Made by a program: the position numbers and the translations under genes
Source: Geobacteraceae bacterium
GTDB lineage: Bacteria; Desulfobacterota; Desulfuromonadia; Geobacterales; Pseudopelobacteraceae
Direction: 5' to 3'
NCBI GenBank assembly: GCA_021286935.1
Contig: JAJTBI010000009.1
Coordinates: 1-64,000, forward strand
Length of the DNA: 64,000 nucleotides
In this document: one piece after another, positions 19,642 through 60,062 of the stretch
How the letters are laid out: every line of letters starts with the position of its first letter
How positions within the stretch are numbered: position 1 is the stretch's first letter
Notes under the pieces: generated by a model
Database searches by the model: none
What the model saw: only the letters and a program-made list of their open reading frames with translations
Told to the model about the DNA's origin: nothing

Positions 19642-19711
19642 AAGCAACGGCGCGGGGGCGCACAAGCGGCGCAGGTCTATCGCGCCGACTGTGTGCCGCC
19701 GAGAGTTAGAC
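19642..19711 (-). other. attC-like recombination site, putative
   Basis: Read on the minus strand, this 70-nt stretch starts with GTCTAAC, which fits the integron R'' consensus RYYYAAC. Two long GC-rich arms then pair imperfectly (19657-19672 with 19681-19700), leaving unpaired bases, and the stretch ends at a GTT (19648-19646). Length and fold fit attC sites. The terminal GTTGCTT departs from GTTRRRY, so the site may be decayed. It directly follows the AT-rich gene at 19739-20164, as in a gene cassette. Confidence 0.4.
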
Positions 19712-19738
19712 CCTTCCTTCTTTAGCAGGTAAGAAAGG

Positions 19739-20164
19739 CTATTTATGCTTGGCAAATCCTATGAGATTTTCAATAAATTTTTTGAACTCGTTCAGCAGTT
19801 CTTCTTCACTACAAATAAAGGCAGAACCATCATAAAACTTCTGGTTGTATTGGCTGTAGTCATTCCATGTTTTTTCAAATTCGCTTTTTATACTCCCTTC
19901 GAGGAATCTGGCGAATTCGATCATGACTCTATTTTGCTTGTCAAAGTTGTTGATGACTATGTGACCGGTAGTGTCCATTCCGTTGGGAAAGGCTTCAAAA
20001 ACACAAGTAAAGGACTCTCTGAAGTTTTTAGCGGCCTCGTTGTAGCCTTTTCTCATACTTTCCGCGTTGCTTCTTCTGATAGCGAGAACATGACCAAGGT
20101 AGGTGCCGAGAATAAGGCCGATGAGTCCGCCTGCTGTGAAGTTTCCGGGTTCAAAAAAGGGCAT
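19739..20164 (-). CDS. Hypothetical single-pass membrane protein, cassette-like
   Basis: 141 residues; AGGAGG lies 11 nt before the ATG. An N-terminal hydrophobic segment (about 11-28, GGLIGLILGTYLGHVLAIRR) is followed by an acidic/aromatic helical domain ending KHK. No family was recognised. Base composition is clearly more AT-rich than all neighbours, which suggests lateral acquisition. An attC-like structure follows the stop, and a GTTRRRY-type sequence (GTTAAAC, 20274-20268) lies upstream, so the gene may be the body of an integron cassette. Confidence 0.65.
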   Translation of the reverse strand: MPFFEPGNFTAGGLIGLILGTYLGHVLAIRRSNAESMRKGYNEAAKNFRESFTCVFEAFPNGMDTTGHIVINNFDKQNRVMIEFARFLEGSIKSEFEKTWNDYSQYNQKFYDGSAFICSEEELLNEFKKFIENLIGFAKHK

Positions 20165-20385
20165 GACGCCTACTACCTCCTAGACTGGATTGTCGGTGCA
20201 GATACTGTGCTATTTGGAGTCTGGTTTAGTGCTCTGTTTTTGAAGTTTCGCAGTTAATTGTATTCTGGTTTAACTCAGTATTACCCGCTTCAAATGCACA
20301 CGCGTGAACCGGTCATCCTCCCAAATGGAACATGTATCCAACTATAGCCCAATATCCCGCTGCCGCAACCGCCCGACTGCTGTTC

Positions 20386-21633
20386 TTACCTTTTATCCAA
20401 CCTGTCAACCTGCGCCAGTTGCGGAAACAGCCGTATCCAGAGCCCCACCACCAGCAGGGTGCCGATACCGCCGATCAGTACCGACGGTACGGTGCCGAAC
20501 AGGGCAGCGGTTGCGCCGGATTCAAATTCACCCAACTGGTTGGAGGTGCCAATAAACAAGGAGTTGACGGCACTGACCCGGCCACGCATCTCATCCGGGG
20601 TTTCCATCTGTACCAGGGATGAACGGATCACCACGCTGATTACATCTGCTGCACCCAGCACCACCAGGGCTGCCAAAGAGAGCCAGAAGATCCAGGAAAC
20701 CGCAAACACAAGGGTGGCAACGCCAAACAGGGCAACAGAGCGGAACATGGTACGCCCCACCCGGCGCTTGAGCGGCCTGCGGGCCAGCCAGAGCGACATG
20801 GCCAGGGCACCGATGGCCGGTGCTGAGCGCAGCAGGCCCAGACCCCAGGGGCCGGTGATCAGGATATCACGGGCATAGATCGGCAAAAGCGCGGTGGCAC
20901 CTCCCAGCAGCACCGCAAACAGATCGAGCGAGATAGCGCCCAGTACCACCGGGTGCTGTTTGATAAAGGAGATTCCGGCAAACAGGGAACGGTCTGCAAC
21001 GGCTTCCGGCCTGGTGGTTTCTGATGCGGGTTGGATGCAGGAGATCAGGATGCAGGCTGCCAGAAACAGCAGGCCAATGGTGCTGTAGACCGTGGTCACA
21101 CCGGCAGTATAGAGGATGCCGCCAATGGCCGGACCCACAATGGTGGCGGTCTGGTTGGCCGAGGCAGACAGGGCCAGGGCGCGGGGCAACTGTTCTCGGG
21201 GTACCAGACGTGGCACCAGGGCATGCATGGTGGGGTATTCAAAGGCCCGTGCGCTGCCGATCACAACCATGATGGCCAGCAGGACCTCTTTGCCAAGCAG
21301 GTTGTAGTACCCGCCAACGGCCAGTGCTACGGCTGCCAACGCCTCAACAAACTGGCAGGTACGGGCAATGGTGCGGCGATCATAGCGGTCAGCAACCTGG
21401 CCTGCCAGCAGGGTCAGCAGTACCATGGGCAGAAACTGGGCCAGCCCCACCAACCCCAGGTACCAGGCGCTGCTGGTAATAGCGTACATCTGCCAGCCCA
21501 CTGCCACCCCCAGCATTTGAAAGGCAATCGAGGAGCCCATCCTGCCAAACAGGAACAGCACCAGCGGCTTGGCCAACGAACCGGATGTCGGCATCTGTTG
21601 CTCAGGTTTTGTCATGGCTATCACGCTGCTCAT
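20386..21633 (-). CDS. MFS transporter, EntS-like group
   Basis: 415 residues from the first ATG; an alternative start is the ATG at 21615. There are twelve helices, with the loop 2-3 motif LAGQVADRYDRRTIAR and the second-half signature VQMETPDEMRGRVSAVNSLF, which is typical of the EntS/MFS_3 exporters that often release siderophores or drugs. The start lies 32 nt inside the end of the HTH-citrate synthase gene, so both are probably co-transcribed. No biosynthetic genes for a secreted compound are nearby. Confidence 0.87.
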   Translation of the reverse strand: MSSVIAMTKPEQQMPTSGSLAKPLVLFLFGRMGSSIAFQMLGVAVGWQMYAITSSAWYLGLVGLAQFLPMVLLTLLAGQVADRYDRRTIARTCQFVEALAAVALAVGGYYNLLGKEVLLAIMVVIGSARAFEYPTMHALVPRLVPREQLPRALALSASANQTATIVGPAIGGILYTAGVTTVYSTIGLLFLAACILISCIQPASETTRPEAVADRSLFAGISFIKQHPVVLGAISLDLFAVLLGGATALLPIYARDILITGPWGLGLLRSAPAIGALAMSLWLARRPLKRRVGRTMFRSVALFGVATLVFAVSWIFWLSLAALVVLGAADVISVVIRSSLVQMETPDEMRGRVSAVNSLFIGTSNQLGEFESGATAALFGTVPSVLIGGIGTLLVVGLWIRLFPQLAQVDRLDKR

Positions 21634-59642: not shown

Positions 59643-59738
59643 AGCGTTTTTTTGGTGTCAGTTGTGCCAAGTCGACAGGGACTATCTCGGTATTTAGGTG
59701 TGAATGAAATGGATTTGACACTAAAACAGGAGCAAAAA

Positions 59739-60062
59739 ATGAGAAACACAAAAATTTTATTAATTCTGGCGATAATTATTTCAAATTGTGTTGGATGCGC
59801 TTCAATAGGTTCTTACTCTCTATCCAAAAACGGGAATTTCAAATTTACCAATAAGAGGATTGAGGCAGAAAAGACGGAGTATTTTTTAGGAACACGGGTA
59901 AGTAGTGAGTTTATATCGGGACCAGTAATAAAGGACAAATATCCATCTGAAATTGCCTTGAAAATGCTGTTTATTCTGGATTTCCCGCTGACCATAACAA
60001 CTGATGCCGTGTTGTTGCCTTTTATTGGCATTAAAAACATCGGGAAAGCAGATCCTCAGTAG
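59739..60062 (+). CDS. YceK-like small lipoprotein
   Basis: 107 residues from the ATG at 59739 (AGGAG 6 nt upstream). The N-terminal hydrophobic segment ends in NCVGCASIG, where Cys20 can be lipidated although the -3 position is unusual. The C-terminal ILDFPLTITTDAVLLPFIG matches the conserved end of YceK/YidQ (DUF1375) lipoproteins. It is AT-rich like the amidohydrolase gene before it. The function is unknown. Confidence 0.72.
   Translation: MRNTKILLILAIIISNCVGCASIGSYSLSKNGNFKFTNKRIEAEKTEYFLGTRVSSEFISGPVIKDKYPSEIALKMLFILDFPLTITTDAVLLPFIGIKNIGKADPQ

Follow-up and report, generated by a model that had tools for sequence, protein, structure and literature searches.

A solitary gene cassette beside a dispersed attI-like repeat in a Geobacteraceae bacterium

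An integron is understood as one attI site, one integrase and a linear array of cassettes, of which those nearest the promoter alone are well expressed. The long-form integrases, which are ~120 aa longer, were grouped as clade 15 by Nemergut et al. 2008 (PMC2426708); they were known earlier as a gene fusion, and the clade includes Geobacter. We describe here a locus that shares with the chromosomal integrons of this type its type of attC, the end of its attI and the G/TT crossover (a slash marks the crossover point throughout), and that lies in a genome with a long intI. The locus differs from such integrons in that intI is absent in cis, a single cassette stands in place of an array, and the attI-like site is repeated many times and has a longer palindrome.

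Cassettes distant from intI have been described in other settings. CALINs (PMC8618304) resemble the present locus in that attC-borne cassettes lie away from intI, but they have at least two attC sites, whereas this locus has a single attC and its cassette is headed by a recognisable attI-like site. Insertion at attG sites (Loot et al. 2024, cited in PMC12901181) likewise places a cassette in the chromosome off the integron, with IntI presumably acting in trans in both cases; the target there is a diverged site, and its counterpart at the present locus is a conserved repeat homologous to attI. In Shewanella prophage M16-3 (PMC9892861), a CALIN also carries an attI of its own, an extra copy that heads a run of cassettes without intI, but this is one copy in one prophage, whereas many chromosomal copies are spread across an order here; beyond that case, we found no literature on multiple, orphan or dispersed attI-like sites. 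The multicopy palindromic sequences of Geobacter (PMC2700814, PMC2996986) are also dispersed and intergenic and occur in the same bacteria. They may include the present repeat, and integrons go unmentioned in both main texts.

The cassette and its attC site

The window (the whole stretch of 64,000 nucleotides that was analysed) contains a minus-strand ORF followed by an imperfect palindrome, and the earlier note read this arrangement as a possible stray integron cassette (Table 1). The ORF is indeed AT-rich relative to its surroundings, with a GC content of 41.3% compared with 55.2% across the window. Only one other patch, at ~59.3 kb, is comparably AT-rich; it holds a 136-aa lipoprotein-like ORF (59652-60062, plus strand), and neither of the models R1 and R2 described below found an attC or a repeat there.

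The palindrome runs from GTCTAAC to GTTGCTT, exactly where it had been placed. Its plus strand, which here is the attC bottom strand, the strand that recombines in known integrons, folds at -22.0 kcal/mol (z = -2.96), better than 199 of 200 shuffled sequences; the minus strand folds less well (-18.5 kcal/mol, z = -1.88). When the DNA of the locus was compared with that of relatives, only the palindrome region was matched, in 13 places at 76-90% identity. A strict stem scan (RYYYAAC..GTTRRRY) missed nearly all sites, and a covariance model was therefore used instead. This model, R1, was made from 15 aligned attC sites of other genomes, with the window left out, and the aligned sites have the pattern RYYYAAC..CGGCGGCAC.CAGTCGGCGC..loop..GCGCCGCTGGTGCGCC..CCGTTRRRY. 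The covariance-model check proposed in the earlier note gave a clear answer with R1: the held-out palindrome scored 69.7 bits (E = 1.2e-16), and the next-best match in the 64 kb was noise (E = 4). Judged by its sequence, the palindrome is an attC. Elsewhere, R1 matches line up on one strand in arrays that run divergently from an integron integrase gene, as at L114. A second attC-like site lies in the window's own genome (G000:C119:5815-5877, minus strand; L140; 38.3 bits with R1). A search of Rfam at gathering and loose thresholds gave no relevant match.

The GTTGCTT end is off consensus, as had been remarked, and this is expected because everything past the crossover G is chromosomal flank and lies outside the cassette. 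At the other end, upstream of the ORF, GTTAAAC lies precisely at 20274-20268 (minus strand), and G20274 is the final base ahead of the crossover in the window. The boundaries in Table 1 follow from the G/TT rule, and the flanks of the corresponding locus in genome G003 can be aligned on both sides to a point no more than 5 bp from the crossover predicted by it.

Table 1. Features of the cassette locus and integron integrase genes of the same genome
Feature	Location	Strand	Description
attC site	19642..19711	-	R'' GTCTAAC 19711-19705; GTTGCTT 19648-19642; crossover G 19648; R1, 69.7 bits
TTGCTT, chromosomal bases completing attC	19642..19647	-	Conserved flank: TTAGTTAACAG in G003, TTGCTAACAAA in G014
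Gene cassette	19648..20273	-	626 bp; starts at the T next to G20274 and ends with the attC crossover G; G/TT rule applied to the sequence
Cassette ORF	19739..20164	-	141 aa; long N-terminal helix and helical domain
AGGAGG ribosome-binding site	20176..20181	-	11 nt ahead of the ATG; read from the sequence
Orphan attI-like repeat, decayed copy	20275..20340	-	66 bp, palindromic; R2 and family alignment
Relic of PIN-domain toxin gene 3' end	20341..20389	-	Gene intact at this place in G006
Standard intI	C38		341-aa frame; 478 bits (TIGR02249)
Long-form intI	C145 (L051)		485-aa frame, N-terminal extension; 337 bits (TIGR02249)

The reading as a cassette proved right. The attC has the RYYYAAC motif, the conserved stem and the G/TT crossover, and its model score is very strong. 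The locus was found in genomes G003, G006 and G014 with its flanking genes kept and with different inserts between them, so that the unit is exchangeable at one site. Conserved synteny of the ORF with its neighbours, which the earlier note had named as evidence against a cassette, is absent, since the congeners hold other inserts there. The window has one attC, fewer than the two or more of a CALIN, and no intI stands beside the attI-like site and cassette as in a complete integron.

The 141-aa cassette protein matched no families, and no close relatives of the ORF were found in GTDB r220 contigs or in plasmids. In an AlphaFold model made from six sequences (mean pLDDT 75), the protein consists wholly of helices, the N-terminal one being long. 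Remote relatives (23-30% identity), which make up a small family with it, were found at L152, L154, L157 and L158; at all four loci the gene ends a few bases from an attC-like site, and at L152 and L158 an orphan attI lies upstream too. A plus-strand ORF at 19745-20257 (170 aa) gave no family above the cut-off, with a weak BCCT match below it, and was judged spurious, since it runs antisense to a gene that has a good ribosome-binding site and homologs in the cassette family.

A dispersed repeat that ends like a long-form attI

The cassette is not stray, because its 5' flank belongs to a family of dispersed repeats that match the attI of the long-form integrase; of the earlier description as an isolated cassette, only the cassette stands. 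The stretch 20340-20275 (minus strand) matches dozens of places in other genomes. A model of the repeat built without the window copy (R2) found 20272-20340 (minus strand) in the held-out window at 57.4 bits (E = 1.1e-10), and the match ended exactly at the cassette junction. An attG site is expected to have a 5' flank without homology to att sites, and the 5' flank here is this repeat.

We extracted 48 copies of the repeat, which have the form GGATAAATGTTCCATTTGGGAAGATCACCGGTTCACGCGCG..CGCGTGAACCGGTCAATAAYGAG/TT. The spacing from the repeat end to the crossover is fixed in the 45 intact copies, 44 of which have GTT directly after the repeat, a count to which the extraction pattern itself contributes. 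Past the GTT, the first base is a purine (44/45) and the fourth a pyrimidine (37/45), with two variable bases between them, and the first ORF usually begins within about 60 nt. GC content is lower downstream of the repeat in 42 of 46 cases (0.45 compared with 0.54). The DNA to the left is mostly unrelated between copies, and the left boundary is abrupt, with no remnants of intI. The palindrome covaries, with 19 both-side changes against 6.6 after shuffling and a covariation score reached by none of 500 shuffles. In the window copy, the 3' arm of the palindrome no longer matches, which we ascribe to decay, and this copy may be inactive as a result.

As the earlier note stated, the window holds no integrase; two genes of the genome, both on other contigs, score above the TIGR02249 cut-off (Table 1). 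The attI position upstream of the long-form intI carries ..GGTCAATAAYGAG/TTRRRY (at L117, for example, ACCGGTCTAACCGGTCAATAACGAG/TTGGCT). We scanned 15 long-type and seven standard intI loci with a matrix for the final 18 nt of the repeat. In 12 of the 15 long-type loci, the best match of the whole locus was at the attI position, 725-1140 nt upstream of the intI match and on the expected strand. In none of the seven standard loci did the best match fall at this position with a similar score and a continuation like GTTRRRY, and the standard IntI of contig C38 was rejected as the source of the site. Over its full length, the repeat matches the true attI weakly with R2 (best E = 0.047), and the orphan repeats have the longer palindrome. 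The repeat thus has the sequence of the attI of a known integrase type in its last 18 nt; the copies are dispersed and not beside intI, and we therefore call them attI-like or orphan attI sites (pads, for short). Long-form intI loci include L051, L108, L114, L117, L118, L120 and L124. A small conserved divergent gene lies between intI and attI in six relatives and encodes proteins like MKTRLCLKPGQRGTKRLTDKYGDALVCVRFRYD...

A simple secondary-site insertion was an early reading that the repeat analysis led us to drop. By this account, IntI made a one-off insertion at a non-classical (attG) site that happens to adjoin an unrelated dispersed palindromic repeat; the attC is genuine, such an insertion requires only G/TT, and the TTGCTT after the attC is off consensus. 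We now regard it as very unlikely, since in all 45 intact copies the end of the repeat coincides with the crossover instead of lying at a varying distance from it, and since this end is shared with the attI of long-IntI integrons.

Exchange at fixed sites and distribution among genomes

The earlier note had suggested that the two cassette ends would pair on circularisation, and they do so in the window at three of four variable positions. For 12 units, we compared the bases after the repeat G with the R'' of that unit's attC and permuted the attCs. The cassette starts paired with their own R'' at 35 of 48 variable positions, compared with 19.9 after permutation (p = 5e-5), and pairing was perfect in five of the 12. 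The best eleven R1 matches in repeat loci all lie downstream of the repeat on the same strand; the distance from it is 0.8 to 2.9 kb for ten and 6 kb for the other (L159). Among the 45 repeat units, a considerable share had no recognised attC. Three units (L161:1038, L194:1014 and L198:4924) are possibly empty pads, in which a long chromosomal-type gene of host-like GC content comes next and no attC was found.

At orthologous positions, the repeat is kept while the DNA behind it changes. L186 and L193 share the repeat, which is followed by 1007 and 819 bp, respectively, of unrelated DNA, and synteny resumes in both at G/TTGATAAACA. Ahead of polA (L180, L196 and L302), the repeat holds the same position with differing cassettes, and after a uvrA-like gene (L181 and L166) the repeat is kept and the cassette differs. 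At the uvrA-like locus, both repeat and cassette are missing from the window's own genome (contig C11), whose sequence there is GCC/GTTCACC where G003 reads attC-CCG/TTCACC.

We weighed whether the repeat and its cargo might be another mobile element that resembles an integron, such as a transposon or REP-like end served by another recombinase. The abrupt left boundary fits such an element, as do the absence of the whole G003 unit from G000 at one locus and the many-copy genomes without IntI. Nevertheless, we consider it highly improbable: the repeat stays at orthologous sites and only the DNA past G/TT changes, the two ends of a cassette pair as they would in an attC circle, and the attC type is that of the long-IntI arrays.

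Of the 277 genomes of the class, 102 have R2 matches; 98 of these are among the 141 genomes of the window's order. Outside the order, the repeat is found in four of 136 genomes, although IntI is present in 58. Exact matches in named GTDB contigs carry only Geobacter, Geobacteraceae, Pelobacter, Desulfuromonad or unresolved (Delta)proteobacteria labels. Some genomes have at least 18 copies, and the window's own genome has eight; an intact copy in this genome lies at G000:C143:19245-19315. Within the order, 49 genomes have both the repeat and IntI, 49 the repeat only, 10 IntI only and 33 neither (Fisher p = 0.003 for co-occurrence, uncorrected for phylogeny). IntI was thus not detected at E ≤ 1e-60 in half of the 98 repeat-bearing genomes of the order, in which the integrase may have been lost, may be supplied from outside or may be replaced by another recombinase. 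Some of these genomes without IntI at that threshold are nearly complete and carry 17-18 copies (G232 and G258).

Repeat-bearing genomes without IntI would also be expected if the pads were remains of ordinary integrons or arrays that rearrangement had split, each with intI lost, with attI and one or two cassettes retained, and with no activity in trans; intI loss and rearrangement are both published explanations of CALINs (PMC8618304). We think this very unlikely, given the 18 or more copies in some genomes and the abrupt left boundary without intI remnants. The differing cassettes at one orthologous pad also argue against passive decay, which would not produce them.

Comparison between genomes establishes, at the level of sequence, the identities of the attC and the attI-like site, the G/TT boundaries, the differences between cassettes at orthologous sites and the pairing of cassette ends. 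We consider it likely that the window holds a single cassette at an orphan attI site and that dispersed pads take up exchangeable cassettes, presumably with the long IntI acting in trans. Circular cassettes would enter the pads by attI x attC recombination carried out by the long-form IntI encoded on C145, and the same enzyme would also excise them, so that one integrase would serve many chromosomal attI sites. Counting against this explanation are the 49 repeat-bearing genomes of the order without detectable IntI, the many units without a recognised attC together with the seemingly empty pads, and the decayed window copy together with the weak full-length match to attI.

Genes around the pads and their implications

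The first genes at 43 sampled pads include those for TIR, caspase, OLD/GajA/AriA-like, Abi and methyltransferase proteins. Toxin and antitoxin genes are frequent just upstream of pads (PIN in 7 of 37, and Fic, PemK, ParE, HipA and Phd; these are raw counts in which several entries are orthologous pairs). Examples lie at L067:3380-3799 (minus strand), an intact PIN gene, L131:7061-7522 (minus strand) and L186:558-1004 (plus strand), and in some cases the repeat supplies the stop codon of the upstream gene. Positions 20279-20389 of the window are 73.9% identical to L067:3324-3432.

Taken as a whole, the system is probably a distributed integron, in which a long-form integrase would act in trans on a dozen or more attI pads, often behind toxin genes, where single, defence-leaning cassettes would be swapped. 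Pads raise the question of how attI sites themselves multiply. The 71-nt repeat would be a cheap marker for newly acquired genes, and several of the genes found behind pads (TIR, caspase, OLD/GajA-like and Abi) are candidate anti-phage genes. If the interpretation is true, pads would be one concrete origin of solitary cassettes, and a genome with many of them would hold several cassettes that are each first behind an attI.
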